64,000 nt of DNA from Longimicrobiales bacterium (GTDB lineage Bacteria; Gemmatimonadota; Gemmatimonadetes; Longimicrobiales; Gaopeijiaceae), in assembly GCA_951813395.1 (NCBI GenBank), contig OX638356.1, positions 2,306,501 to 2,370,500 of the forward strand, given 5' to 3'. Positions within the stretch are counted from its first letter, which is position 1. The number at the start of each line of letters is the position of its first letter. The position numbers and the translations under genes are program-made. The notes below the pieces were generated by a model, which ran no database searches, was not told the DNA's origin, and saw only the letters and a program-made list of their open reading frames with translations. This document shows positions 44,125 to 58,870 of this stretch, piece by piece.

Positions 44125-46089
44125 GTGGGCTTTCTCAACCCCCTCTTCCTTCTGGCCGGCATCGCGGTGCTTGTACCCGTGATCCTGCATCTGTTCTACC
44201 GGCAGGAAAGCAAGACCTTCACCTTCCCCGCCATTCGCTACCTGCTCAGAACCGAAAAGGACCACGCCCGCCAGATCCGCACCCAGCAGCTCCTCCTGCT
44301 CCTGGTCCGGGTGGCCACGGTACTGCTTCTGGTCGTGCTGGGGGCACGAGTCCACATCCCGGGTCCCGGGGGGAGCCATGACCCGACCGCCCTGGCGCTG
44401 GTGATCGACAATTCTCTCAGTGCGACGATCATCGAGGACGGACGACGGCGTCTCGACACCTTGAAGGCCGTCGCGCGCATGAGCGTCGAGGCTGCAAGCT
44501 ACGACGACGTCATCTGGGTGGTCCGGGCCGGAAGTCCCTGGGAGGTTGCGGTGCCGGTGGGCCTGACGCAGGCCGCGCTGGCCATCGAAGAGACGGGCGC
44601 CAGCCACGGGCGCGGCGACCTGAGCCACGCGATCGCGCGGGCCCGGGCACTGGTTGCCCAGAGCGATCTGCCGCGACGGGAAGTGCACGTTTTTACGGAT
44701 CTCCAGGCGACGGCGTTTTCCGAGCCTGCGGGCGGAGACGCCGACATCCCGGTCATCGTCTTCGCCGCGCCCTCCGGCGAACTGGAGAACCGCGGAATCG
44801 ACAGGGTATCGATCGGTGGTGGACTCCCCCCGCTTCAGGGGCGGCGCGCCGAGGCCGCGGTCTCGATTTCGGGTGGCTCGGCGGGCGACACCGTCGGGGT
44901 GCGTCTCTACGTGGGCGACCAGGTGCGCGCGGCCGCCAGGGCCCCCTCGGGTACCACGGTCCGCCTGCCGATGGGCCCCTTCCCGTCCGGACGCGTCGAC
45001 GGCCATGCCGAGATCGATCCGGACCCGCTCACCGGCGACGACCGCCACTTCTTCTCCTTCATGGTCCGGGATCCCACGCCGGTTGCGGCCGTTGGCCCCA
45101 CGCCCTTCTTTCTCGCCGAAGCGCTCGCGGTCCTGGCGGAGAGTGAGCGCATCTCGCTCGGTGGCGTGGGTCGCGCCGCCACGCTCATCAGCCTCGGCGG
45201 GGAGGGGTTGCAGGGGCGCACGTCCTCCCAAAGCGCCCTTGTGGTGCCGCCCGCCGACCCGGCCCGGCTCCCGGCGCTGAATCGGCGCCTCGCGGAGGCG
45301 GGCGTACCCTATCGGTACCAGGCGGGGCCCGGGGAGGGCGCTCGCATTGCACAGAGTGATCTCCCCGTGGATCTGGAGGGTCTCGACATCCGCGGGTTCT
45401 ACCGGGTGGTCCCCGCGGAGCCGGCCGACAATCCCACCGGGACGGCCGGGACCACGGACGGCGGCGGTGGCACAAGCCGCGTCGTCGCCGGCGACGACGG
45501 TTCCCTGGTCACATTGTCCACCGGCGATCCGTGGCTGGTGGCCGGCACCGCGCCGACCGGTCCCTATATCCTGCTCGCGTCACCGGTCGACGAGCAGTCA
45601 ACCACGTTGCCCACCTCCGCGGCCATGATTCCGTTGCTCGAGTGGGTGATCGAACGCCGTTTCGGGGACGCGACGGGTGTTTCCGGGGTCACCGCGGGAA
45701 CGAGTTTCCGACCGTCGCCCATTGCCAGCGCCGTGCGCGCTCCTGACGGCACCGTGCAACCGGTCGACGGGGATCAGCCCTTCCTCCAGACCGAGGTGGC
45801 GGGGATCTACCAGGTGCTTGCCGGTGACAGCGTAGTGGAAGCCGTTCCGGTCAATCCACCCGCGGCCGAGGGGGACCTCGCGCCCGCGTCGCGCGGCGAG
45901 GTCGGGCGAACCGTCCCGGGGGTGCGCGACATCGTCGACGATGCCTCTGCGTGGTCCCGGCACATCTTCAGGGCGGGACGGGGACCCGAGCCATGGCGTC
46001 CCCTCCTGGCCATCATCCTGGCGTTGCTCGTCCTGGAGACCGTTGTTGCCGCGTCGCGCGCGCTCCGTACCCGCCGACCCGGTGCCTAG
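44125..46089 (+). CDS. BatA-like membrane protein with vWA domain
   Basis: A 654-residue protein. The N-terminal two-helix BatA domain (NPLFLLAGIAVLVPVILHLF, then FPAIRYL) is followed by a vWA domain with the MIDAS motif DNSLSA near residue 95. A long periplasmic beta-rich region comes next, and a last helix (LLAIILALLVLETVVAAS) near the C-terminus. GTG start. With the DUF58 gene it forms a reduced Bat-type module, lacking MoxR. Its 3' end overlaps the mfd start by 8 bp. Such modules are linked to envelope or stress functions, poorly defined. Confidence 0.85.
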   Translation: MGFLNPLFLLAGIAVLVPVILHLFYRQESKTFTFPAIRYLLRTEKDHARQIRTQQLLLLLVRVATVLLLVVLGARVHIPGPGGSHDPTALALVIDNSLSATIIEDGRRRLDTLKAVARMSVEAASYDDVIWVVRAGSPWEVAVPVGLTQAALAIEETGASHGRGDLSHAIARARALVAQSDLPRREVHVFTDLQATAFSEPAGGDADIPVIVFAAPSGELENRGIDRVSIGGGLPPLQGRRAEAAVSISGGSAGDTVGVRLYVGDQVRAAARAPSGTTVRLPMGPFPSGRVDGHAEIDPDPLTGDDRHFFSFMVRDPTPVAAVGPTPFFLAEALAVLAESERISLGGVGRAATLISLGGEGLQGRTSSQSALVVPPADPARLPALNRRLAEAGVPYRYQAGPGEGARIAQSDLPVDLEGLDIRGFYRVVPAEPADNPTGTAGTTDGGGGTSRVVAGDDGSLVTLSTGDPWLVAGTAPTGPYILLASPVDEQSTTLPTSAAMIPLLEWVIERRFGDATGVSGVTAGTSFRPSPIASAVRAPDGTVQPVDGDQPFLQTEVAGIYQVLAGDSVVEAVPVNPPAAEGDLAPASRGEVGRTVPGVRDIVDDASAWSRHIFRAGRGPEPWRPLLAIILALLVLETVVAASRALRTRRPGA

Positions 46090-49000
46090 CAGTCCGGGTC
46101 CCGCCGCGGCCCCGCACCCCGCCTCGGCCGCGCTCGCACGCACGCCTGCGTTCCGCGAACTGCTCCGCGGCATCCCCGCGGCCCTCGATTCCCTGACTGT
46201 GGGAGGCGCGGCCGGTTCCCTGCCCGTCACGGCTGTCGCGACGCTCGCCGAGCATCTCCCCACCCGGCTCTGGATCGTCACCGCGTCCTCTCCGGACGAG
46301 GCTGCCGAGTACCTCGGCGATCTGGAAGCCCTGGGGGGCGCGGGCCTGGCGGTGCCGTACCCGCAAAGCGAGGATCTTGCGGCGGGCGATGAACACGGCG
46401 ATGAGGTCGAGGGGCAGCGGGTCGAAGCGGTCGAGGCGCTGCTCGCGGGCCAGGCACAGGTGATGGTCGCGACCCACCGCGCGCTTCAGGAACTCGCCCC
46501 GATACCGGACGACATCGCCGATTTGCGCTTCACGGTCGCGACCGGCGGCCGGCTGCGGCGGGACGCGCTGATCGAGGGCCTGGAGGCACGCGGGTTCGAG
46601 CGGTCTCCCATGGTGGAGGAGGCCGGCACCTACACGGTGCGCGGCGGCCTGATCGATGTATTCTCCTACGGCGCGGCCGGCCCCGTCCGAATTGAATTCC
46701 TGGGTGACGAGATCGAATCCATCCGCCACTTCGGCGTATTGGACCAGCGGTCCACGGAGACCGTGACGCGGACCGACATCCTGCCCGTGCGCTTCGGCGC
46801 CACGATCGATACCGGACGGCGGACGGACTGCTCCCTCCTGGACCGGCTGCCACGGGACACGATTCTGGTACGGATCGGCGACGACCCGGTGCGCGAAGAA
46901 GCCGAGGCGGCCTGGAAGCGTGCGGACACCCGCTATCGCGATGCGGTACGCTACGGCAACCCGGCCACCGATCCGGCGACCGTTCTACTGACGCCCGAGG
47001 CGGTTGCGGAGCGCGTCGCCCAATACGGCCGCGTCAGCTTCGTCGAGGAGCATGTGGGAAGCGTAGTCTTCCAGGCACGCAGGCCGCCGGTGGTCGAACG
47101 GGACATGGGCCGCCTGCGCTCCTTTCTGTCCGGCGCCGCCGCGGCAGGAGAAGAGACCTTCATCCTCTGCGACAATGAGGGCCAGGCCAGCCGGCTCGAC
47201 GACCTCCTCGCGGACAGGCGGGGGACTCCTCCCCGGGGCTGCCACCTGGTCGTGGGTTCACTCGCCAGGGGCTATTGTCTGGCGGAGTCCAATCCTCCGG
47301 TCAATATCCTCACCGATCACGAGATCTTTCGCCGGGGCCGGAAACTGCGACGGCGACGGCGTTTCCGCGGGTCCGCGTCGCTGGAGAGCCTGGCGCAACT
47401 CACCCCCGGCGACCACGTCGTCCACATGGAACACGGCATCGGGCGTTTCCGCGGTCTCGAACGGGTCGAGATCGGGGGTGAATCGATCGAGGCGCTCGTC
47501 ATCGCCTACGCGGACGGCGAGGTGCTGCGGGTTCCGGTCTACCGGCTCGACGAGGTGGAACGCTGGGTTGGAACGCACCCGGGCGACAAGCCGGCGGGCC
47601 TGCACCGGATCGGGGGGAGGCGATGGAAGCGGCTGAAGCGGAAGACCGAGGCCGCGATCCACCAGATGACCGCCGAGTTGCTGGAGCTCTACGCCGCCCG
47701 GCGGGCCCGCCCGGGCTACGCGTTTTCCCCGGACACCCGCTGGCAACGCGAGATGGAAGCGGCGTTCGTATACGAGGACACGCCGGACCAGCGGACCGCC
47801 GTCGAGGATGTCAAGCGGGACATGGAGTCGTCGGGGGCGATGGACCGTCTCGTGTGCGGCGACGCCGGCTACGGCAAGACGGAGGTCGCCATCCGGGCGG
47901 CCTTCAAGGCCGTGCAGGACGGAAAACAGGTCGCAGTATTGGCCCCCACGACCGTACTCGTCGCGCAGCACGCGCGGACCTTCGGCGACCGGCTCGCCGA
48001 CTATCCGGTGGTCGTCCGTTCCCTCTCCCGGTTCGACCCTCCGCGCCGACAGCGCGAGGTCGCCGCCGGCCTCCTCGACGGAACGGTCGACATCGTGATC
48101 GGCACCCACCGCCTTCTATCGGGTGACATCGCGTTTCACGATCTGGGGCTCGTCGTGATCGATGAGGAGCAGCGGCTCGGCGTCCGTCAGAAGGAGCGGC
48201 TGAAGCGGCTTCGCACCACGGTGGACGTCCTCACCCTTACCGCCACGCCGATCCCCCGGACCCTCTATCTCTCGCTTGCGGGCATTCGCGATCTGTCGCT
48301 CATGCGGACCCCGCCCAGGGACCGCATGGCCATCCTCACCCACGTCATCTCCTGGAGCGACCACCTGATTGCCGAGGCCTGCCTGCGGGAACTCGATCGC
48401 GGCGGACAGGTCTTCTTTCTTCACAACCGGGTAGAAACGATCGATACGGCGGCCGAACGCGTGCGCCGGCTCGTAGGCGATGCGAACGTCGACGTGGCCC
48501 ACGGCCAGATGGGTACCCGCCCGCTGGACCGGGCCATGACGCGCTTTGTGGAGGGGCGGACCCAGGTGCTCGTCTGCTCCTCGATCATCGAGAACGGGCT
48601 GGACGTGGCCAACGCCAATACCCTGATCGTTGCGGGGGCGCACCGCTTCGGGCTCTCCCAGCTCTACCAGATCCGCGGGCGGGTCGGGCGCTGGGACCGC
48701 CGCGCGTACTGCTACCTGGTAGTACCCGACAGGATCACGGATGAAGCCGAGAAGCGCTTGCGGGTGCTCGAGCACTTCACCGAACTCGGGAGCGGCTACC
48801 AGATCGCCCTGCGGGACCTCGAGGTCCGTGGCGCGGGCAACCTCCTCGGCGAGCATCAGTCGGGTTTCGCGCACGCGGTCGGCCTGGACACCTACATGCG
48901 CCTCATGGAGGACGCTGTGCGCCGCATGCGGGAGGGGGAGCGCGGTGTCCGTCATCCCCGCCCCGAGGTTACAATGTCCGCCAGCGCATACCTGCCCGAC

Positions 49001-49411
49001 GACTATATTCAGGATCAACATCAAAAACTCCACCTGTATCGCCGTCTCGCCAAGGTGTCCGAGGCGGGCGACATCAGGGCCCTCGCCGACGAGATCACGG
49101 ACCGGTTTGGACGGCCCCCCTCCGCGGTGAGGAGGCTGCTGGACCAGTCGCTGCTGGGACTGACCGGCCGGAGCGCCGGGGTCGATCGCATTCTGGTGCG
49201 GGGGAACAGGGCACGCGTCAACTTCCGTCCCGAAGTCGTCCCGCGCATTTCCGCTCTGGAAGGGACCCTGCAGGGTGAAGCGGTCGCGCTGGAGGTTCGC
49301 AGAATCGCTCCGCTCTCGGTAACCTTCGCTTGCGAGGAGGCGGACAGGCTTGCCGGTGTGCTGGAACGGGCACTGGAAACGCTCGGAGGAGGCACGAATG
49401 GAGACGCATAA
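46082..49411 (+). CDS. mfd: Transcription-repair coupling factor Mfd
   Basis: A 1109-residue Mfd (E. coli 1148). It has the UvrB-like N-terminal module, then the RNA polymerase-binding domain (GDHVVHMEHGIGRFRGLERV). The helicase core has Walker A CGDAGYGKTEVA, Walker B VVIDEEQRLGV and TLTATPIPRTLYLS, and the RecG-like motif GRVGRWDRRAYCYLV follows. The C-terminal regulatory domain is present. Mfd removes stalled RNA polymerase and recruits UvrA. The start is GTG 46082, overlapping the BatA-like stop; the first residues are Pro/Ala-rich. Confidence 0.96.
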   Translation: MPSSPGPAAAPHPASAALARTPAFRELLRGIPAALDSLTVGGAAGSLPVTAVATLAEHLPTRLWIVTASSPDEAAEYLGDLEALGGAGLAVPYPQSEDLAAGDEHGDEVEGQRVEAVEALLAGQAQVMVATHRALQELAPIPDDIADLRFTVATGGRLRRDALIEGLEARGFERSPMVEEAGTYTVRGGLIDVFSYGAAGPVRIEFLGDEIESIRHFGVLDQRSTETVTRTDILPVRFGATIDTGRRTDCSLLDRLPRDTILVRIGDDPVREEAEAAWKRADTRYRDAVRYGNPATDPATVLLTPEAVAERVAQYGRVSFVEEHVGSVVFQARRPPVVERDMGRLRSFLSGAAAAGEETFILCDNEGQASRLDDLLADRRGTPPRGCHLVVGSLARGYCLAESNPPVNILTDHEIFRRGRKLRRRRRFRGSASLESLAQLTPGDHVVHMEHGIGRFRGLERVEIGGESIEALVIAYADGEVLRVPVYRLDEVERWVGTHPGDKPAGLHRIGGRRWKRLKRKTEAAIHQMTAELLELYAARRARPGYAFSPDTRWQREMEAAFVYEDTPDQRTAVEDVKRDMESSGAMDRLVCGDAGYGKTEVAIRAAFKAVQDGKQVAVLAPTTVLVAQHARTFGDRLADYPVVVRSLSRFDPPRRQREVAAGLLDGTVDIVIGTHRLLSGDIAFHDLGLVVIDEEQRLGVRQKERLKRLRTTVDVLTLTATPIPRTLYLSLAGIRDLSLMRTPPRDRMAILTHVISWSDHLIAEACLRELDRGGQVFFLHNRVETIDTAAERVRRLVGDANVDVAHGQMGTRPLDRAMTRFVEGRTQVLVCSSIIENGLDVANANTLIVAGAHRFGLSQLYQIRGRVGRWDRRAYCYLVVPDRITDEAEKRLRVLEHFTELGSGYQIALRDLEVRGAGNLLGEHQSGFAHAVGLDTYMRLMEDAVRRMREGERGVRHPRPEVTMSASAYLPDDYIQDQHQKLHLYRRLAKVSEAGDIRALADEITDRFGRPPSAVRRLLDQSLLGLTGRSAGVDRILVRGNRARVNFRPEVVPRISALEGTLQGEAVALEVRRIAPLSVTFACEEADRLAGVLERALETLGGGTNGDA

Positions 49412-50774
49412 TGTGAAAAGGTGGATGACGTCAAGTTGCCTGGTGTTGACGCCGATGCTCGCGAGCTGTGGCCCGGGGTCCCTTGCCGAAGCGGATGGAA
49501 ACCGGCTCCGCGTCGAAGACGCCGCCATCCTGATCGCCGACAACAGCCGCGTCGCGGCGGACCCGGAGATCGTGCGGGTGGTCGCCGAACTCTGGGTGGA
49601 CTATACCTTGCTGGCCTCGCGCCTCACGGACGATACGACCCTTCAGTCGCTGGACGTCGGCCTGCTGACGGAAGCGCCGCTGAACGAGTCGATGATCGCC
49701 CGCCTCAGGGATGAGGTGGTGGAGCTCGACACGATCGTAGGCGACGAGGAGCTGATGGCCCGGTTCGCGGCGGACATGCCCGGCGCCCGAGCCACGGCCT
49801 CCCAGATCCTGCTCCTCTTCCCCCGGGGCGCGACCACCCTCCAGCGCGACAGCGTCCGCACCCTGGCGACCGGACTGAGGTCCCAGCTGGACGCGGGCGC
49901 AGACTTTGTCGCAATGGCTGCCCGCTACAGCGACGACCCTGGAAGCGGTGCGAGGGGGGGACAAATGGGGACCTTCGGGCGCGGTGAAATGCTCGCGCCG
50001 ATCGACTCGGCGGTTTTCGCCCTGCGCCCCGGCGAGACCACAGGGCCCGTCGAGTCCACTCTCGGCTATCATCTGCTGCGGCTCGACGCCCTCGATGTCC
50101 CGGAACTGTCGGAGGTAGGCGCGGAATTCCGTCGGCAGATCCAGTTCGAGCGCCTGGCCCAGGCCGAGGCAGAGTACGTCACGCAACTCGACTCCATTTC
50201 CGGACTGAGCCTCGCGGAGGGAGCGGTGGCGTTGGCCCGGGCACTGGCTGCGACGGCTCCTTCGCGTCTTTCGCGCGGTGCCGCCGATCGACCGATGGTC
50301 ACCTGGGACGCGGGTTCGTATTCGGCGGGAGACTTCCTGTCGCTTGTGCGCCGCTCCGGGGAGGGATTCGGCGAGGGCGTCGCCTCCGCGTCGGATCAGG
50401 AGATGGAAGCCGTGCTTCGACGCCTGGGGCAGGAGGCAATGCTCCTGGAGCACGCCCGGTCGCTCGGACACGCGCCGACCGAGGCCGAGATCGACTCGGT
50501 GTCGGCAGAGGCGCGGGCCGCGATCCGGGAACGGGCCGCGTTGATCGGGCTCACTCCCCGGGAGGCCCGGTCCGATTCCGCCGCCGTTGCCGACGAGGCC
50601 GGGGACGCGTCCGCGGCGAGCCGCGTGGAGGCGGCGTTGGTCAGGGTCGTGTCCGGCGAGAGCGAGATCATTCCATTGGGCGGCGTTACATTGCTACTCA
50701 GGGACCAGGGTTCCTGGCGTATCGACGCTTCCGCCGTAGCGGCAACGCTGGAACGGATCGAACAACTCAGATAG
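49398..50774 (+). CDS. Lipoprotein parvulin-type peptidyl-prolyl isomerase
   Basis: A 458-residue protein with a lipobox-like LASC after a hydrophobic stretch ([13 protein letters not shown]), so it is probably a periplasmic lipoprotein. A PpiC rotamase domain lies at about 130-235 ([40 protein letters not shown]), flanked by SurA-like helical regions. The ATG at 49398 has GGAGGAGG upstream and overlaps the end of mfd by 14 bp; a GTG 15 bases further would shorten the signal peptide. It precedes surA, giving two foldases in tandem for outer-membrane protein assembly. Confidence 0.88.
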
Positions 50775-50815
50775 GTGTCGGCCCCTCGGGCTTACTTCGG
50801 ATGTGCAGGACAATC

Positions 50816-52129
50816 ATGAAACAGACGATCCACGGACTGCTGGGCGCCATCGTCGCACTTCTCGCAATTGCGCCGGGGATCCGGGCACAGACGGGGCCCG
50901 ATGACCTGGTCGACGAAGTGGTGGCGATCGTCGGCGATTCAGTGGTCCTCCTGTCTCAGATCATTCAGCAGGAGAACCAGTGGCGGGCACAGGGCAGACC
51001 GGTTCCGGAGGAAGGCACCCGGGATCGGGATGAATTCCGGCAGGAGAGGCTGGAGGAACTCGTACAGCAGCTCCTGGTGCTGCAGGCGGCGGCCCAGGAC
51101 ACACTGCTCGAGGTGGAGGACGAGCGCGTCGAAGATGCGCTCCAGGAACGCATGGCTCAGACGGAAACCGCCTACGGCAGCCGGGCCGCGATGGAACAGG
51201 CACTGGAGATCGAGGGACTTACGATCCAGAGCTACAGGGAGATGCTGCGGGAGCAGATCGCCCAGGAGCAGCTCGTGCAACTCTACATGGCCCGCCATGG
51301 GGACGAGGGCGCCGTCGAAGTCACCGAGGCCGAGATGCTCGCGTTCTTCGAGGAGGGGCGGGAATCCCTGGAAGAGCGCCCCGCCACGGTGACCTTCAAG
51401 CAGGTGATGCTCAGCGTCGCCCCCTCCGATTCCTCCCGCCTGGCCGCCCGCGGCACACTGGAGGGCGTGCTGGAGCGGGCCCGCGCGGGGGAGGATTTCG
51501 CCGAACTCGCGACCGAGTATTCGCAGGATCCCGGCTCGGCGACCGCGGGGGGAGATCTTGGCTGGTTTCGCCGGGGCGACATGGTCGATGAGTTCGAAGA
51601 GGCGGCCTTCACGCTTCTGGAGGGCGGTATCAGCGAAGTGGTCGAGACGGTCCACGGGTTCCACATCATCCTGGTGGAACGCGTGCGTTTCGCCGAGCGG
51701 AAGGCCCGGCACATCCTGATCCGGCCCGAGACGGGTGCGCGGGACAATGCCCGGACGCGCGTGACGGCCGAGGAGGTGGCGGCGCGTGCAGAAACGGAAG
51801 ACTTCGAGGCGTTGATCGACGAGTACCACGACAGCAGTCTGCCCGATTCCGCGACCGTTCCGCAGAGGCAGATCGCGCAGATCCTGCCGGCGGCCTACCT
51901 GGCCGCGCTGACCGGGCGGGAGGAAGGCCAGGTCGTGGGACCCATCCAGTTCGGATACCTGGACCAGGAGCGGTTCGCCGTCCTGAAGATCATTGAATTG
52001 AGAGCCGCGGGAGAATTCACTTACGAGGACCTCAGGCCTCAGATCCGCGCTACGCTGATGCGGCAGAAGAGGGTCGAGGCGCTGATGCAGGATCTGCGCG
52101 CAAAGACCTACGTCGAGTTCGTGAACTGA
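50816..52129 (+). CDS. surA: Periplasmic chaperone SurA
   Basis: A 437-residue SurA. A signal peptide ends at about GIRAQ; the N-terminal chaperone domain begins [19 protein letters not shown]. One clear PpiC domain (about 180-285: [20 protein letters not shown], then [20 protein letters not shown]) is followed by a degenerate second one. SurA escorts outer-membrane proteins through the periplasm. The ATG at 50816 has AGGACA upstream. The surA-pdxA order is also seen in E. coli, which supports both calls. Confidence 0.93.
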
Positions 52130-53058
52130 ACGTCCGCCTGGCCATCACCCTCGGCGACCCCCGGGGCATCGGGCCGGAGGTAACGGCAAAAGCCCTCTCC
52201 GCCGCCGATCTGAGCGATGTCGCCGTGCGCGTCACCGGACCGGTCGAGTGCGCCGCCGACTTTCGGGAGATGTGCCGCTACGAGGCGCTGGAAGGAGGTG
52301 TGGCGGGTCTGGCGCCGGGCCGTGCGGCCGGGCTCGCGATCCAACGGGCGGTGCGCTGGGCACTCGCGGGCGACGTGGACGCGGTTGTTACCGCGCCCGT
52401 GCACAAGCCCGCACTTGAAGAGGCGGGATACCACCCGGGCCACACCGAGATGCTGATGGCGCTCTCCGCCGCGCCGCGCGTGGGCATGCTGATGTGCGAC
52501 GAGGGGTCTGGCGGCGGCGACCGGCCCGCGAAGCGGGTGCTCCTTGCCACGACGCACATTCCGCTGGCGAGCGTACCGGATGCGGTCACGGCGGAGCTGC
52601 TTTCCTCCCAGACCCGTCTGCTGGCCGCGGCGCTTCGCTCCGACTGGGGCATCCCGGTTCCGCGCATCGCGCTCTGCGCCCTCAACCCGCACGCCTCCGA
52701 CGAAGGACTGTTCGGCTCCGAGGAGCGTGACGTGTACGGACCAGCCCTGGCGTCCCTGGCGGACGCCCCGTGGTCCCTGACCGGGCCGGTACCCGCCGAC
52801 ACGGTCTTCGGCCGTGCGTTTGCGGGTGAATTCGACGCTGTGGTCGCCCCGTACCACGACGTGGGCATGGCCGCATTCAAGACAGCGGCTTTCGGTCGGG
52901 GGGTCAACGTCACGATCGGCCTGCCGTTCGTGCGAACATCTCCGGACCACGGCACCGCGTTCGACATCGCCGGCAGGGGCGTGGCGGACCCGTCATCCAT
53001 GGTGGAAGCGATTGGGCTCGCGATCCGGCTTGCCAGGGGCCGCCGCAGAGTGGGCTGA
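52126..53058 (+). CDS. pdxA: 4-hydroxythreonine-4-phosphate dehydrogenase, apparent CTG start
   Basis: A 310-residue enzyme of pyridoxal phosphate synthesis (DXP-dependent route). The N-terminal signature [15 protein letters not shown] and the metal-binding histidines in [17 protein letters not shown] and [12 protein letters not shown] are all present. In-frame family sequence reaches back to 52138, but the first ATG, GTG or TTG in this frame is only at 52225, beyond the signature. The only fitting start is CTG 52126, whose CTGA overlaps the surA stop exactly as the NTGA overlaps elsewhere in this window. The enzyme is slightly shorter than E. coli PdxA (329). Confidence 0.88.
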
Positions 53059-53138: not shown

Positions 53139-53168
53139 TTGCACGTTTTGCCCCCGACAACCGTTAAT
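53139..53168 (+). promoter_or_regulatory. Candidate promoter for the cysteine-rich peptide cassette
   Basis: TTGCAC (53139-53144), an 18-bp spacer and GTTAAT (53163-53168) lie in the 164-bp gap after pdxA. Matches to the sigma-70 consensus are 3 and 4 of 6. If the cassette is read by its own ECF sigma factor the true site will look different; no copy of the 25363 motifs is seen here. Confidence 0.3.
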
Positions 53169-53222: not shown

Positions 53223-53783
53223 TTGATCTCGGCAAAGCGCAACACCACGGCAGCCGCGCTGACCACTCTGGCGGTCATCCAGTTCTCGCTGCTGGCCAAC
53301 CGACTGGAGACCGGGAGCGCCGAGCGCATCGCGATTGGCGACGACCTCTCGGATGTCCGCGTCGGTCAGGACTACGGCGGTGGGGGGCTGCTCAACGAGT
53401 ACCAGCTGGTGCTGGTCTTCGATCCCGAGTGCGTCCATTCCCGGGGCGTCGCCTGGCAGTGGGAGAGATTCCTGCGGGAACCGGACAACCCGGACAGGCC
53501 GGCGCGGATCCTTGCGGTTGCGCCCGGGTCGCTCGAAGCTGCGGCGCGCCATGCGGATGCCAACGGCTGGGAGGTCCCGGTGGCGACGATTGACCGTCCT
53601 CGCCCCGGGAGCCGGGAACGCGCGCTGGTCAGCCGCACTCCGTGGGTTCTTGCACTGCGGGATGGCCGCGTGGTTGCCGAGGGCCCTGGACATGAACTGG
53701 CCGAAATCGTCGCGGCACTGTCGCCCGCAATCGGCGCCCCGCGCGGAGCGCGACCGCAACTCGCGGCGCCCTACCTGCCATGA
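53223..53783 (+). CDS. Membrane-anchored thioredoxin-fold protein with CxxS site (TTG start)
   Basis: A 186-residue protein. An N-terminal hydrophobic segment (about 9-26) anchors or exports it. The rest fits a TlpA-like thioredoxin fold: VLVFDPECVHSRGVAWQWER gives the active-site loop as C-V-H-S, ILAVAPG is a core strand, and SRTPWVLALRDGRVV shows the cis-proline loop. A CxxS loop points to disulfide isomerisation, glutathionylated substrates or plain binding rather than full reduction. The TTG start at 53223 has AGGGAGA upstream. It overlaps the propeller lipoprotein gene by 4 bp (ATGA). Its neighbours include a peptide with eight cysteines, a plausible client. Confidence 0.75.
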   Translation: MISAKRNTTAAALTTLAVIQFSLLANRLETGSAERIAIGDDLSDVRVGQDYGGGGLLNEYQLVLVFDPECVHSRGVAWQWERFLREPDNPDRPARILAVAPGSLEAAARHADANGWEVPVATIDRPRPGSRERALVSRTPWVLALRDGRVVAEGPGHELAEIVAALSPAIGAPRGARPQLAAPYLP

Positions 53784-54907
53784 AGCGCCGGCTCCTGTTC
53801 GTCGGCGCCGCCTGTGCGGTCGCAAGCGCGTGCGCGAGCTCGGACACTTCGATCGAGTTTCGCGAGGTAGCCGCCGAGGCACTCACGATGCCCTTCCCCG
53901 AGGTGGAGTTCACGGCCATACGGGATATCGCCGTCTCCCCGGACGCGGTCTGGGTCCTCGATACCTCTCCTCCGTTTCTGACGCGCATCGAGCACTTCGG
54001 CGGTGGCGTCCTTCGTGGCGGCGACCGCGGTGAGGGTCCGGAAGATCTCGTTTTCCCGATCGCGGTGCAGGTCGACCCGAATCACGGGACGGCCCACGTG
54101 TGGGATCTTGGCAGCAGACAGCACAAGGTCTTCGACGCGACGATGTCGCTGGTCCGGTCCGATCGCCTGCGCGGCGCGTCCTGGGCGCGGCGAAGGGACT
54201 TCACCGATGTCTCCTACGCGGATCCATATCGTGTCCGTCTCAATGCACGGGGCACGGTCGTCATCGACGCGTCCGGCGGTCTCGACGTGACGGCCGATTT
54301 CCAACGCGCATCTCTTGTCCGGGCCGATTCCGCCCTTGAGACCCGGCAGGAAGTCGTGGCCTTCTCGGATCACATGCGGTCGACAGGCGAAGCTCCCGGA
54401 GAGTTCGCGCCGGTTCCCCTGTGGGACGCCTGCGGAAGCGATCTGGTGCTCTGGCGTCCTGCCTCGCACGACCTGGTCTGGCTGGACGATGACGGATCGA
54501 TCGCAGCCGAGGTCCCGATCCCGGGCCGCCCCTCCCCGATCCGCGAGGCGGATATCGTGTTCTACCTGGAGAAGATGATACGCCTCGAGCTTGGCCCGAA
54601 CTACGTCGAAGCCGGGATCGACCTGGACGTCATGGCGCGAGACGTGCGAGCGCAGTTTTCGGATGAATTGCCGTTCGTGACGTCCGTCCTGTGCGAGGCG
54701 GGAGGTCCGGCCTGGCTTCGGCTCTTCGACAACCGGGCCGATCCGCTTGGGCACGGCCGCCGCTGGCTGCGGGTGACCAGCGCGGGAGCGGTGGACGCGT
54801 TCGAATTCCCTCCCTTGTTCGAGCCCCTTACGGCCACGCCGCGAGGGGTGCTCGGTTCCTTTGGATTCTCCGACGGCGTACGGTGGCTGGCCGCATGGAC
54901 AGAGTAG
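53780..54907 (+). CDS. 6-bladed beta-propeller lipoprotein
   Basis: A 375-residue protein with a lipoprotein-type signal (VGAACAVASACASS, likely lipidated Cys at 18). It has repeats of the 6-bladed beta-propeller (NHL/DUF4934-like) kind: IRDIAVSPDAVWVLDTSPPF, RGGDRGEGPEDLVFPI, DLGSRQHKVFD and VWLDDDGSIAAEV. In Bacteroidota such propellers often sit next to small exported cysteine-containing (NVEALA) peptides, which parallels the gene that follows here. It may bind or sense a peptide at the membrane. The ATG overlaps the preceding stop. Confidence 0.83.
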   Translation: MKRRLLFVGAACAVASACASSDTSIEFREVAAEALTMPFPEVEFTAIRDIAVSPDAVWVLDTSPPFLTRIEHFGGGVLRGGDRGEGPEDLVFPIAVQVDPNHGTAHVWDLGSRQHKVFDATMSLVRSDRLRGASWARRRDFTDVSYADPYRVRLNARGTVVIDASGGLDVTADFQRASLVRADSALETRQEVVAFSDHMRSTGEAPGEFAPVPLWDACGSDLVLWRPASHDLVWLDDDGSIAAEVPIPGRPSPIREADIVFYLEKMIRLELGPNYVEAGIDLDVMARDVRAQFSDELPFVTSVLCEAGGPAWLRLFDNRADPLGHGRRWLRVTSAGAVDAFEFPPLFEPLTATPRGVLGSFGFSDGVRWLAAWTE

Positions 54908-54945
54908 CCCGTATCGCGTCGCGTTACCTCAGAGAGGAATGGCCC

Positions 54946-55152
54946 ATGCGCAAGCTGGTCCTGGCTGGTCTGATCGCTCTCAACCTTCTGCTGGCGGTCG
55001 CCCTGTTCGCGGCTCCGGCCCAAACGCTGATCACGCGCTTCACACGGTCCGACTGCTGCTGGGGCGAGGGCGCCAAGGCCTATTGCTGCCGCGAATGCTG
55101 CTGGCTCGTAAAGAACTGTGACCGTGACAGCGAATGCCGGCCCGATCCATGA
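54946..55152 (+). CDS. Small exported cysteine-rich peptide (8 Cys)
   Basis: A 68-residue protein. Residues 1-25 form a hydrophobic signal sequence ending AAPAQ. The remaining 43 residues contain eight cysteines at 37, 38, 47, 48, 51, 52, 58 and 64, in the pattern CC-x8-CC-x2-CC-x5-C-x5-C. AGAGGAA precedes the ATG. It overlaps the next gene by 4 bp and lies 38 bp after the propeller gene. No family is recognised. Four disulfides, metal binding or peptide maturation are all possible. No peptide-modifying enzyme or transporter is adjacent. Confidence 0.75.
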   Translation: MRKLVLAGLIALNLLLAVALFAAPAQTLITRFTRSDCCWGEGAKAYCCRECCWLVKNCDRDSECRPDP

Positions 55153-55988
55153 CCAGACGGTTTGAACGCCCTGGATCCACCCGCGGCATGGCCGCGATGG
55201 CCCCGGCGCTGAAAGCGGCCGCCCTCTGGGCCCTGGGACTCGTGGTTGTGATCGTGGTGTTCCACACCATCGCCGTGGCCCAGCCCCAACCGTGGTCGGG
55301 CCAGATGTGGCTCGCGTACGTGGCCGGCCGGTTGGGGATCGTCCTGCCCTTTGCCGCATTCGCCGGGGGTGTGGCGATTTGGGAACGAAATCCAGCTGCG
55401 GGAAGGACCCGGGTGGCGGTTCTGGCCGGGCTGGTCATCGGGCTGGCGAGCTATGCGTCGTCCGAAGTCGTCAGTCCCCTCGCGGACTACGCCGCCCTGG
55501 CCGGAGAGCCGGATCTGGCGGAAATCAGACCCTTCGGACCGCGGACTCCCGCGGGGAAGCTCCGTCAACTCCGCTTCGTCGAAGCGAACCCTCCGGAGCA
55601 GTATCGGATGGGCGACATGACACGGACCCCTCCCAACGGGATCCGGCTTTTGCTGCACCTTCCGCTGGTTGCTGTGGCCTTCTCCGTACTCAACAGCGTG
55701 CTGGGACTCCAGGCAGCCCGATTGACGACCGCCCTCCGCACGCCGAGCCGCCGAAACGGGCGCCTGGCCATCGGCCTGGCCGGGGGGTTGGCGTTCTTTG
55801 GCGCGGTCTTTGTCGCGGGCCAACCGGGCCGCGACTGGGTCGCGTTATCCGGTGCCGTGGCAGCATGGCTGCCGCTGGCGGTGCCGCTCCTCGAAGCCAT
55901 GGTGCTCAAAGCGATGATCTACCGCGAGGACGTCTCCGTTTTCGGCCGGTTGAGCGGCAGACAACCCTTCCTTTGGCGAGGAACCTGA
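55149..55988 (+). CDS. Six-helix integral membrane protein of unknown function
   Basis: A 279-residue protein with six predicted transmembrane helices at about 24-45, 60-80, 92-110, 165-190, 205-225 and 230-255. A periplasmic-size loop of about 55 residues between helices three and four contains PLADYAALAGEPDLAEIRPF. The arrangement recalls the membrane part of LptF/LptG proteins, but the match is too weak to assign. The ATG overlaps the stop of the cysteine-rich peptide gene (ATGA), so the two are translationally coupled and probably act together. An anti-sigma gene follows after 3 bp. Confidence 0.75.
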   Translation: MTRRFERPGSTRGMAAMAPALKAAALWALGLVVVIVVFHTIAVAQPQPWSGQMWLAYVAGRLGIVLPFAAFAGGVAIWERNPAAGRTRVAVLAGLVIGLASYASSEVVSPLADYAALAGEPDLAEIRPFGPRTPAGKLRQLRFVEANPPEQYRMGDMTRTPPNGIRLLLHLPLVAVAFSVLNSVLGLQAARLTTALRTPSRRNGRLAIGLAGGLAFFGAVFVAGQPGRDWVALSGAVAAWLPLAVPLLEAMVLKAMIYREDVSVFGRLSGRQPFLWRGT

Positions 55989-55991
55989 AAC

Positions 55992-56429
55992 ATGTCCTGT
56001 CCCGATCTGTGGGGCGTCCGCGACGACAGACCCCGTACCGAGGAGGATCCGGGTGTGCGGGAACACCTGCAGACCTGCCTCGATTGCCGTCGCGACATGC
56101 TTCTTATCCAGGCGGCGAAAGCGGCGTTCGCGCCGCAACCGGAGACCTCGCCGCGCCTCGACCATCTCAATGAGCTTGTCTTGCGGACGATGGCGAAAAG
56201 GCGGATCCAGCGAGCAATCGTTCGTCCCCTGGACGCGGGGGTGACAGGATTGCTGGGGGCGTTGACGGTCGCGGCCGCGATCCTGACAACCGGCGGGCAC
56301 CTCCAGCCGGGAGCGACCACGCTCGAGTTGGCCCTTTTGGCCGCTGGCGGGGGGGTGGCAGCCGCAGCCGCACACATTCTGGCTGGCAGAAGGGAACACA
56401 CGCTGGCGCTCCAGGCCGCGCAGATCTGA
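55992..56429 (+). CDS. Zinc-finger anti-sigma factor (zf-HC2 type)
   Basis: A 145-residue protein. Residues 1-45 carry the zinc anti-sigma pattern with an early Cys (SCPDLWG) and HLQTCLDCRRD (H-x3-C-x2-C). Residues about 75-135 contain two transmembrane helices (GLLGALTVAAAILTT, LALLAAGGGVAAAAAHILAG). It should bind the ECF sigma factor encoded 31 bp downstream. Here the anti-sigma gene comes before the sigma gene, the reverse of the operon at 25489. Confidence 0.85.
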   Translation: MSCPDLWGVRDDRPRTEEDPGVREHLQTCLDCRRDMLLIQAAKAAFAPQPETSPRLDHLNELVLRTMAKRRIQRAIVRPLDAGVTGLLGALTVAAAILTTGGHLQPGATTLELALLAAGGGVAAAAAHILAGRREHTLALQAAQI

Positions 56430-56460
56430 CTCGCCCGGCTTCGCGGAACCCGAGCCCTCG

Positions 56461-57075
56461 ATGACTCGTCCCCGCAGCGGAGACGCGAAGCGCCTGTCAT
56501 TCGACGCCGTGAGGTTCGTTGCCGGCGGCGACTACGCCCGGCGGGTCGTTCAGGAGTATGGTCCGCTGGCATGGACCATTTGCAAGGGGTACGCGCGCGA
56601 CCATGACCACCTGGACGACCTGTACCAGGAGACCTGGCTGAAGGTGTATGCCACCGCGGGATCGTTTCGGGCCACGGGCAGCTTTCAGGGGTGGCTTGCC
56701 CGGCTGACCCGCAACGTATGCGTCAGCGAATACCGGACCCGGATGGCTGCCGCCCGGAGCCTCGACCGCTACGCCGGCGAGTTGGCCGCCTCCGGTGAAG
56801 CCGCGGCAGGTCCCGATCCGCTCGATCGCGTCGAGGGCGAGTTTCTGCATCGCATCATCCGCGAGGCGATCGACGACCTCCCGGCCCGCGAGAGGCAGGC
56901 GTTGACCCTGAGACTGATCGACGGGGAGAGCCCGGCCGAGGTGGCTCGCCTGATGCGCGTGCGGCCCGCGACCGTGCGCTCCCACATCCGCCATGCCCTG
57001 AAACGGCTCAGGAAGCGGATAGAGGATCCGCGCGACCCGCTGCACGTCCTCCTGCGCTTCCGGCCCAACGACTGA
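56461..57075 (+). CDS. ECF RNA polymerase sigma factor
   Basis: A 204-residue ECF sigma factor. Region 2 spans about 25-100 (YGPLAWTICKGYARDHDHLD, then TGSFQGWLARLTRNVCVSEY) and region 4 about 135-190 (LPARERQALTLRLIDGESPA, then VRPATVRSHIRHALKRLRK). It is the last gene of the cassette that begins with the thioredoxin-like gene and probably directs transcription of that cassette, controlled by the zinc anti-sigma factor upstream. It is not close to the ECF sigma factor at 25489. Confidence 0.92.
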   Translation: MTRPRSGDAKRLSFDAVRFVAGGDYARRVVQEYGPLAWTICKGYARDHDHLDDLYQETWLKVYATAGSFRATGSFQGWLARLTRNVCVSEYRTRMAAARSLDRYAGELAASGEAAAGPDPLDRVEGEFLHRIIREAIDDLPARERQALTLRLIDGESPAEVARLMRVRPATVRSHIRHALKRLRKRIEDPRDPLHVLLRFRPND

Positions 57076-57140: not shown

Positions 57141-58301
57141 ATGCCACCCGCAATCCAGCAACCACCGGTTCCGCCCCCGTTCCGGGGACACGACGCGCTC
57201 AGGGCGTCGCTCGGCCGCGCCCTCGACCGCGATGCCCTGCCCGCCACGGTGCTGATCCATGGCACGCCGGGTTGCGGCAAGCAATCCCTCGCCCTCTGGC
57301 TGGCTCGCGCCCGGCTGTGCACCGGCGGCGCCGACCGCCCGTGTGATCGCTGTGGAAGCTGCCGGCTGGCCTTGCGCCTCGAGCACCCGGACATCCATTG
57401 GTACTTCCCGCTCCCGCGTCCGCGGCGCGTCCACGGACCCGCCAGGCTGGCGGAGGCTCTGGAGGCCGCGCGTCACGAACGGCTCGCGGAGTTTCGCAGG
57501 CAGCCGCTGCGGGCGGAGGGAAGCGATGAGGTCAAGGGCATCTATCTGGCCGCCGTTGTCACGCTCCGCCACCAGGCGCACAAGCGGCCGGCCATGAGCG
57601 ACGAGCAGTTCTTCGTCGTGGGGGACGCGGAACATCTTGTCCCTCAGGAGGCCAGCCCCGAAGCCGCCAACGCGCTTCTCAAACTCCTGGAGGAGCCCCC
57701 CGACGGGACCCGGTTCATCCTGACGTCCGGGAAGCCGGGAAGCTTGCTGGACACCGTTCGTTCCCGTGCCCTCCCCATTCACCTTCCCCCGCTCCCCACG
57801 AAAGAGGTCGCCGGTTTTCTCGAAGAGCACTGCGGGGCGGACCGCGAGGCGGCACGGAGCGCGGCCGTCCTTTCACAGGGATCGATCGGCGCAGCGCTCG
57901 GCCATCTGGACCGCGAGGGCTTTCACGCGGACCAGCGAAGCAGCGCGCTGGACCTGCTCCGGATCGCAACCGGCGGGAAGCGTGCGGAAGCCTTCAAGGC
58001 GGCACTCAAATGCGGACCCGCCGGGGCCAGGGGCCTCCTTGACCTGCTGGGCGCGCTGCAGCTGTGGATTCGTGACCTCGGGGCGGCCGGCCTGGGCCAG
58101 GACCAGCGGGTGATCAACGCCGATGAACTGCCCTACCTGCGGGATACCGCCGGGCGCCTGAAGCTGACGCCGGAGCGGGTCGCGCGAGCGGTCGATCACG
58201 TGGAGCGGGCCCGGATGCTTGCGCTCGGCAACGTGAATCCGCAGCTCTTCGTCGGTACACTTCTTCTGGAACTGGAAGAAACACTAAACAAAGTGGTTTA
58301 G
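57141..58301 (+). CDS. holB: DNA polymerase III delta-prime subunit
   Basis: A 386-residue clamp-loader subunit. The P-loop region reads [19 protein letters not shown] four-cysteine zinc module follows (C-x8-C-x2-C-x2-C, in CDRCGSC), then the conserved [20 protein letters not shown] and [14 protein letters not shown], then [12 protein letters not shown]. The central stretch after the zinc module ([15 protein letters not shown], about 100 residues) is longer than in E. coli HolB, an insert common outside proteobacteria. The start is ATG 57141, since the preceding GTG extension is not family-like. moaC follows after 2 bp. Confidence 0.92.
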
Positions 58302-58303
58302 CA

Positions 58304-58870
58304 ATGTCGGATTCGGGCATCGCAGACATGCATCGGGCCGCGCGGGCCGCCAGGAGAGCCGGGAAGGACGCGGACACCTCCGACACACGCGAGGCGCTGA
58401 CCCACCTTGACCCGGACGGCAAGGCGACGATGGTCGACGTGACGGAAAAAGCACACACGGCCCGCCACGCGGTCGCGCACGGCGTGCTCAGGTGCTCGCG
58501 GCGTGCTTTCCGGCTTCTCTCCGAGGGCGGCAACCCGAAGGGAGATGTCGAAAGTGTCGCCCGTCTCGCAGGGATCATGGCGGGCAAACGCACGGGCGAA
58601 CTGATTCCGCTCTGCCACGTGCTTCCCGCGGCCAGCATCGCGGTGGACATCGAACCGGACCCGACTCTGCCCGGCCTGCGGGTCACCGCGACCGCAAGCA
58701 TCAAGGGACGGACGGGGGTGGAGATGGAGGCGCTGACCGCGGTTTCCGTGACCCTGCTGACCGCCTATGACATGCTCAAGTCCGTCGATCGCGGCATGAC
58801 GATCGAATCGGTCGAACTGTTGCGAAAATCGGGCGGACGTTCCGGATCCTGGCAGCGCGGCCCGGAGTGA
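58304..58870 (+). CDS. moaC: Cyclic pyranopterin monophosphate synthase
   Basis: A 188-residue MoaC, which forms cPMP in molybdenum cofactor synthesis. Signature segments are [38 protein letters not shown] and [20 protein letters not shown], followed by MLKSVDRGM. An N-terminal extension of about 30 residues precedes the usual start. No other moa or moe gene is in the window. It begins 2 bp after holB and ends 16 bp from a convergent gene. Confidence 0.95.

Follow-up and report, generated by a model that had tools for sequence, protein, structure and literature searches.

The cassette and its products

The window considered here is a stretch of 64,000 nucleotides from contig OX638356.1 of a Longimicrobiales bacterium (assembly GCA_951813395.1, positions 2,306,501 to 2,370,500), and the subject of this analysis is a cassette of six genes at window positions 53223 to 57075. 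The genes encode, in order, a thioredoxin-like protein (TRX), a beta-propeller (BP), a small cysteine-rich peptide (PEP), a six-helix membrane protein (MEM), a zinc-type anti-sigma factor (ASF) and an extracytoplasmic function (ECF) sigma factor (SIG). All six open reading frames (ORFs), which a first-pass annotation had described as a unidirectional set, were confirmed in place on the + strand and are coding. TRX and BP overlap by 4 bp, and the PEP stop and MEM start share an ATGA overlap that is kept in three orthologues, with an alternative MEM start possible at 55188. Among the six products, SIG alone has a clear match in Pfam or NCBIfam. A putative ECF promoter, TTGCACGTTTTGCCCCCGACAACCGTT (53139..53165, + strand), which is conserved and consists of a -35 element TTGCAC, 16 nt and a -10 element CCGTT, lies 57 nt upstream of the TRX start.

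SIG (56461..57075, + strand, 204 aa) matches the Pfam models Sigma70_r2 (2.9e-15) and Sigma70_r4_2 (2.6e-14) as well as TIGR02937 (3e-27), and possesses sigma-70 regions 2 and 4 without region 3 or 1.1, as is the case for ECF sigma factors. ASF (55992..56429, + strand, 145 aa) adjoins the ECF gene and carries in its cytoplasmic N-terminal domain the sequence EHLQTCLDC, of which HLQTCLDC fits H-x3-C-x2-C; the HxxxCxxC motif is found in 37 of 42 ASF homologues, and the match to zf-HC2 is subthreshold. The protein lacks an extracytoplasmic sensor domain and ends in a C-terminal hairpin of two transmembrane (TM) helices. The pair of an ECF sigma factor and a zinc anti-sigma factor is thus as the first-pass annotation had it, given the matches to both sigma regions and the HLQTCLDC motif.

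PEP (54946..55152, + strand) is a 68-residue peptide with an N-terminal TM helix that contains an invariant Asn13. The spacing of its eight cysteines in the earlier description, CC-x8-CC-x2-CC-x5-C-x5-C, is exact in the window, and the gene is under purifying selection among four orthologues (nonsynonymous divergence, dN, of 0.02-0.11 versus synonymous divergence, dS, of 0.18-0.74). All eight cysteines and the TM-helix asparagine are invariant in an alignment of 31 members, and of the 60 peptides whose pattern is regular, 51 have the spacing 8/2/5/5 or 9/2/5/5. AlphaFold places a confident helix at residues 2-22 (pLDDT about 90), followed by a small cysteine domain of moderate confidence; since the overall pTM was 0.35, the model was kept out of fold searches. 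AxA-like sites, at which the helix might be cleaved, are seen in some members and not in others. The family has no match to named peptide families in Pfam, NCBIfam or PDB chains, and the parallel with NVEALA peptides that had been drawn for it is not supported at the family level, as 0 of 31 peptides match the Pfam NVEALA model at E <= 1. NVEALA, or another named peptide family, was therefore rejected as the identity of PEP. Membership of the cassette in a defence system was likewise rejected, PADLOC having given nothing meaningful.

MEM (55149..55988, + strand, 279 aa) has the six TM helices assigned to it previously, and its description can be extended to that of a protein with an LptF/LptG-type fold that is tied, and once fused, to ASF. 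Its AlphaFold model, built from 18 sequences (pLDDT 75, pTM 0.72), retrieved LptF/LptG proteins as its top 19 structural matches, with Z-scores of 17.4 to 12.0 and the next, unrelated protein at 9.0; the best match was LptG chain 6mit_G (Z 17.4, root-mean-square deviation 3.3 over 231 residues). Foldseek E-values were weak (best 0.11), and PF03739 matches 10 of 18 MEM homologues under its curated cut-off (best 9e-4), the window MEM itself giving no match to this model. Helices 86-118 and 162-194 are about 43 residues apart, and the segment between them (TM3-TM4) contains no strands and no beta-jellyroll; within it lies FG-TP ... NPP-Y-L ... PPN-L--LH, the motif that is best conserved across the family. 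From the proline in TM2 to that at the end of TM3 there are 44 residues in a manual comparison, versus 58 in LptG and 57 in LptF of the same genome, so MEM apparently lacks the stretch in which the coupling helix for LptB presumably sits in LptF/G. MEM is accordingly predicted to be LptF/G-derived but, having no jellyroll and a TM2-TM3 segment that is 13-14 residues shorter, is not filed as LptF/G. Both termini are cytoplasmic in LptF/G, and the same topology in MEM would fit a cytoplasmic anti-sigma domain at its C-terminus, with the conserved loop outside the cytoplasm, where the cysteine domain of PEP is also expected. At locus L043, in a related genome, MEM and ASF form a single polypeptide of 412 aa. 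A working lipopolysaccharide (LPS) permease was rejected as the identity of MEM, canonical LptF and LptG being encoded at 1.872-1.875 Mb of the genome, and a viral source was rejected since viral contigs hold no MEM relative.

TRX (53223..53783, + strand, TTG start, 186 aa) is a membrane-anchored thioredoxin/AhpC-TSA-like protein with a single-cysteine C-x-H-S loop, CVHS in the window, and C-x-H-[ST] occurs in 22 of 22 resolvable type-1 TRX homologues (cassette types are defined below). The CxxS loop of the earlier annotation therefore stands, while the thioredoxin fold is weakly backed in Pfam by an AhpC-TSA match in one homologue (E 4e-4, under the curated cut-off) and by none for the TRX of the window. 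A glutamine is conserved in the TM helix of the TRX-like proteins (encoded within 53223-53280 in the window, and seen in relatives), comparable to the invariant asparagine of PEP, and the two residues possibly mediate a helix-helix contact.

BP (53780..54907, + strand, 375 aa) is an exported six-bladed NHL-type propeller and possibly a lipoprotein. Its family profile matches NHL propellers in PDB with E-values down to 3e-46, and PF17170 matches 7 of 14 homologues at E <= 0.01 (best 2.3e-8), the BP of the window not being among them. The proposed propeller lipoprotein is thus probably a propeller, judging from its homologues, and its lipobox (ASA-C) is non-canonical. In the 4.1-Mb genome of the window (G000, contig C1) there are 123 profile matches to six-bladed NHL-type propellers, which correspond to roughly 110 genes. 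Exported proteins of 140-190 aa with 7-9 cysteines adjoin propellers at L069 (5318-5857), L045 (6713-7153), L054 (4576-5097) and L051 (13916-14449), and judging from such neighbourhoods propellers and cysteine-rich exported proteins appear to be a general pairing in these genomes.

Cassette types and their distribution

Gene neighbourhoods were derived with a purpose-made gene caller, and peptides were added through profile searches. The collected PEP family consists of 61 genes, is multi-copy in the genus and is present in 20 of 23 genus genomes; homologues are rare outside the genus, and the named records are metagenome-assembled genomes of Gemmatimonadetes. Peptides of the window's type (type 1, CC-GEG-EAYCC) account for 30 loci, and CCKK-like peptides (type 2) for 31. 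The linkage of the peptide to its partners holds across these loci and is not due to chance. MEM lies directly downstream of PEP in 29 of 30 type-1 loci, two of which have MEM-ASF fusions, while a contig end interrupts the remaining locus. Both SIG and ASF accompany the peptide in 29 of 30, TRX is at most six genes away in 23, and BP is present in 22. Peptide homologues are thus almost always accompanied by the membrane and sigma genes, contrary to the pattern that would have refuted the first-pass annotation. The neighbour listing proposed in the first-pass annotation gives a TRX-like gene near 51 and a propeller near 47 of all 61 peptides.

In most type-1 loci PEP shares a transcription unit with MEM, SIG and ASF, and TRX and BP are either divergently oriented or missing. 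TRX, BP and PEP are co-directional in 20 loci of both types, frequently with 4-bp overlaps, from which they appear to be translationally coupled in two cassette types that have different sigma clades. The order MEM-ASF-SIG seen in the window is common to four orthologous loci, and most other loci have MEM-SIG-ASF. All six genes are also found together in another genus, at L189.

Near 27 of the 31 type-2 peptides is a longer protein, MEM2, which aligns with MEM at an hhalign probability of 95.6 percent over 212 columns; none of 44 unrelated multi-TM proteins, used as single-sequence controls, exceeded 1.4 percent. MEM2 also has an ASF-like tail (a weak match over 94 columns). Type-2 examples (L071 4186-8136, L078, L173, L176 and others) contain SIG, TRX, BP, a CCKK-type peptide and MEM2, the last with six TM helices and an anti-sigma-like two-TM tail.

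MEM is confined to the bacterial family of the window: of 395 genomes from the phylum, 24 contain it, and 20 of the 24 belong to the genus. In the sigma factor tree the type-2 sigmas stand apart and cassettes with MEM but no peptide branch from within peptide-bearing groups, a pattern that fits repeated loss of the peptide from MEM cassettes; adjacency to MEM persists across deep sigma subclades. L171 retains a degenerate peptide, and L064 retains a peptide sequence that was overlooked by the automatic rule. The genome of the window holds two more cassettes, at L039 8492-10500 (C1, about 160.5 kb) and at L040/L228 (C1, about 318-334 kb). One has a peptide that is 52% identical, the other is a peptide-less MEM-SIG-ASF set, and both carry the promoter motif and have propeller operons nearby.

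A conserved promoter motif and its candidate regulon

The motif TTGCAC-N16-CYGTY precedes the operon of the window and most type-1 cassettes, in agreement with the sigma control that had been suggested. In five orthologues the sole strongly conserved intergenic block is TTGCACGTTTT-GCCC-GA-AACYGTY (window 53139-53165), and the motif with its fixed 16-nt spacing was recovered independently from paralogous cassettes; a zero-mismatch match lies at G000:2359639. Upstream of TRX the motif is found in 17 of 22 type-1 cassettes versus 0.9 expected from dinucleotide shuffles, and upstream of PEP in 13 of 27 versus 1.0 expected, many of the motif-less PEP genes being in TRX-led operons. The corresponding counts for type 2 are 0 of 34 and 2 of 30, and the two (L041 and L043) are type-1 orthologues that were misfiled because their MEM is fused. 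Neither the TTGCAC motif nor a clear replacement turned up in type-2 cassettes. The cassette is thus apparently autoregulated from a bipartite promoter motif.

Genus-wide there are about 120 matches to the motif versus 12 for a reversed control, mostly 51-84 nt upstream of start codons. The motif is present in 20 of 23 genus genomes, which are exactly those with MEM, and in none of the three without it (G008, G010 and G014); the chance of such coincident absence in three genomes is 1 in 1771. Genes downstream of other sites include propeller operons, cysteine-rich exported proteins, further ECF sigma factors and regulators, and in the genome of the window the intergenic sites are found at its three MEM cassettes and, in the vicinity of two of these, at propeller operons. 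Propellers are found in 13 of 35 motif-bearing operons versus 45 of 252 controls from the same propeller-rich loci (p 0.013). Since propeller operons elsewhere have the motif upstream too, propellers are probably at least in part outputs of the system.

Two further observations concern the motif. Just downstream of an ArsR/SmtB-like regulator at L239, L245, L251, L253, L263 and L266 lies a 19-residue ORF (MTNVCGCCC-GGCCGGPCC-like, 8-9 cysteines) that is conserved in six genomes, and a perfect copy of the motif reads antisense towards it. Copies also occur within coding sequence (L229 1319, L254 864, L238, L241, L259, L260 and L262), those at L229 and L254 being about 400 bp upstream of an XdhC-like gene; such copies may represent conserved codons or an internal promoter.

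A candidate envelope-to-sigma signalling module

The gene linkage, the folds, the fusion, the conserved promoter motif and the regulon tendency, all computed directly, speak for a cassette that works as an envelope-to-sigma signalling module, with MEM as an LptF/G-derived receptor and PEP as its extracytoplasmic subunit, a proposal for which the case is evenly balanced. From these data we infer the contact between PEP and MEM, the direction of signalling, the roles of TRX and BP and the nature of the signal. PEP would be anchored by its single TM helix with the eight-cysteine domain outside the cytoplasm, and would form a sensing unit with MEM, which would hold or control ASF. The state of PEP (folded, disulfide-bonded or ligand-bound) would be set with the help of TRX and BP, which may set or read it, and a change in PEP read by MEM would release SIG. 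The sigma factor would then transcribe its own operon and operons for propellers, cysteine-rich exported proteins and regulators from TTGCAC-N16-CYGTY. Because ASF lacks an external sensor and PEP is the immediate partner of MEM, PEP is proposed to serve MEM as a subunit or lid, a suggestion modelled on LptC, whose single helix packs on LptF/G. MEM is likelier than the propeller to report to the sigma factor, since it is linked, and once fused, to ASF. A bolder claim, that the cassette represents a new class of transmembrane signalling in which a stripped LPS-exporter-type fold serves as receptor, is gated by an LptC-like eight-cysteine peptide and controls an ECF regulon of propeller and cysteine-rich surface proteins, is put forward tentatively and is probably too strong.

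The cassette shares with class I ECF/zinc anti-sigma systems of the SigE/RseA and SigW/RsiW type the sigma regions 2 and 4, HxxxCxxC, co-transcription and apparent autoregulation. It differs from them in that the membrane part of ASF is no more than a two-TM hairpin, without a sensor domain outside the cytoplasm, a role that apparently falls to the LptF/G-fold protein and the eight-cysteine peptide, and in that the -35 element is TTGCAC rather than the usual GGAAC. With LptF/LptG and LptC it shares a six-TM fold, an outside TM3-TM4 loop and a single-TM partner (PEP here, LptC there), whereas MEM lacks the beta-jellyroll and apparently the coupling-helix stretch of TM2-TM3 and is paired with an anti-sigma factor instead of the LptB ATPase. 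The NVEALA peptides and six-bladed propellers of Bacteroidota likewise place a small exported cysteine peptide beside a propeller of the PF17170 type and a protein resembling thioredoxin, but the sequences do not match, and the present cassette has a fixed eight-cysteine pattern, its own sigma/anti-sigma pair and an LptF/G-fold membrane protein. Methylamine dehydrogenase (MauA/MauB/MauD/MauE) also combines a propeller, a small disulfide-rich subunit, and thioredoxin-like and membrane helpers, but here there are no evident quinone cofactor residues, the peptide is far smaller and the membrane protein has a different fold. Neither an LptF/G-derived receptor with an eight-cysteine TM peptide nor a paper on NVEALA was found in the literature searched, which covered few subscription papers; the single paper there that mentions ECF sigma factors, LptG and anti-sigma factors together is unrelated. 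The sigma/anti-sigma logic is of a known kind; the new element is the combination of a putative LptF/G-derived receptor with an eight-cysteine TM peptide.

It is possible, if on the whole unlikely, that PEP is instead a partner or cargo of BP and TRX in a redox or binding complex that recalls known pairs of a beta-propeller and a cysteine-rich subunit, and that MEM, ASF and SIG constitute a separate stress sensor that switches the operon on. The coupling of TRX, BP and PEP in cassette types with unrelated sigma clades would fit such an arrangement, as would the MEM-SIG-ASF sets that lack PEP and the propellers that adjoin other cysteine-rich exported proteins. Most type-1 peptides, however, belong to the MEM-SIG-ASF transcription unit, with TRX and BP divergent or absent, and remain beside MEM, not BP (27 plus 2 of 30). 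Unrelated targets are frequent in ECF operons and the family is limited to one bacterial family and a few class members, so PEP and MEM could be lineage-specific passengers of an ordinary autoregulated sigma/anti-sigma operon, with no part in signalling; this is improbable in view of the conserved place of MEM in deeply separated sigma subclades, its fusion to ASF, and the MEM-like protein with an ASF-like tail in the second cassette type. Slightly less likely still is a secreted bacteriocin or pheromone with MEM as its sigma-controlled immunity or export protein. Although PEP is small, cysteine-rich, exported and multi-copy with variable loops, and the fold of MEM is transporter-derived, the cassettes show no recurrent peptidase, ABC exporter or maturation enzyme, the cysteine core and GEG-EAYCC are conserved rather than diversifying (with low dN/dS), and the TM helix has an invariant asparagine and no universal cleavage site. 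The MEM-anti-sigma fusion and the lack of a defence-family match also speak against it.

Several points weigh against MEM as a receptor with PEP as its subunit. In some members the TM helix of PEP may instead be a signal peptide that is cleaved off. The kinship of MEM to LptF/G is argued from structure and weak Pfam matches, and hhalign of MEM against LptF/LptG of this genome, a two-sequence alignment, was negative. A peptide is missing from about one third of MEM-SIG-ASF sets, so the core may be able to function on its own. The test for propeller enrichment gives a modest result, since propellers are also common in the local background. If the signalling module is real, an LPS-export permease fold has been turned into a receptor. 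The cassette is a recurrent, multi-copy case, and because a receptor candidate, a small peptide, a promoter motif and a candidate regulon are all defined, each signalling step can be tested. It also provides an entry point to the study of the roughly 110 propeller genes in these uncultured Gemmatimonadota.

The cassette lies between housekeeping genes, a position that is kept in the orthologous loci L041-L044. Upstream (window 46082-53058) are genes for an Mfd-like protein, two chaperones resembling peptidyl-prolyl isomerases and a PdxA-like protein, and downstream (window 57141-58870) are HolB-like and MoaC-like genes.

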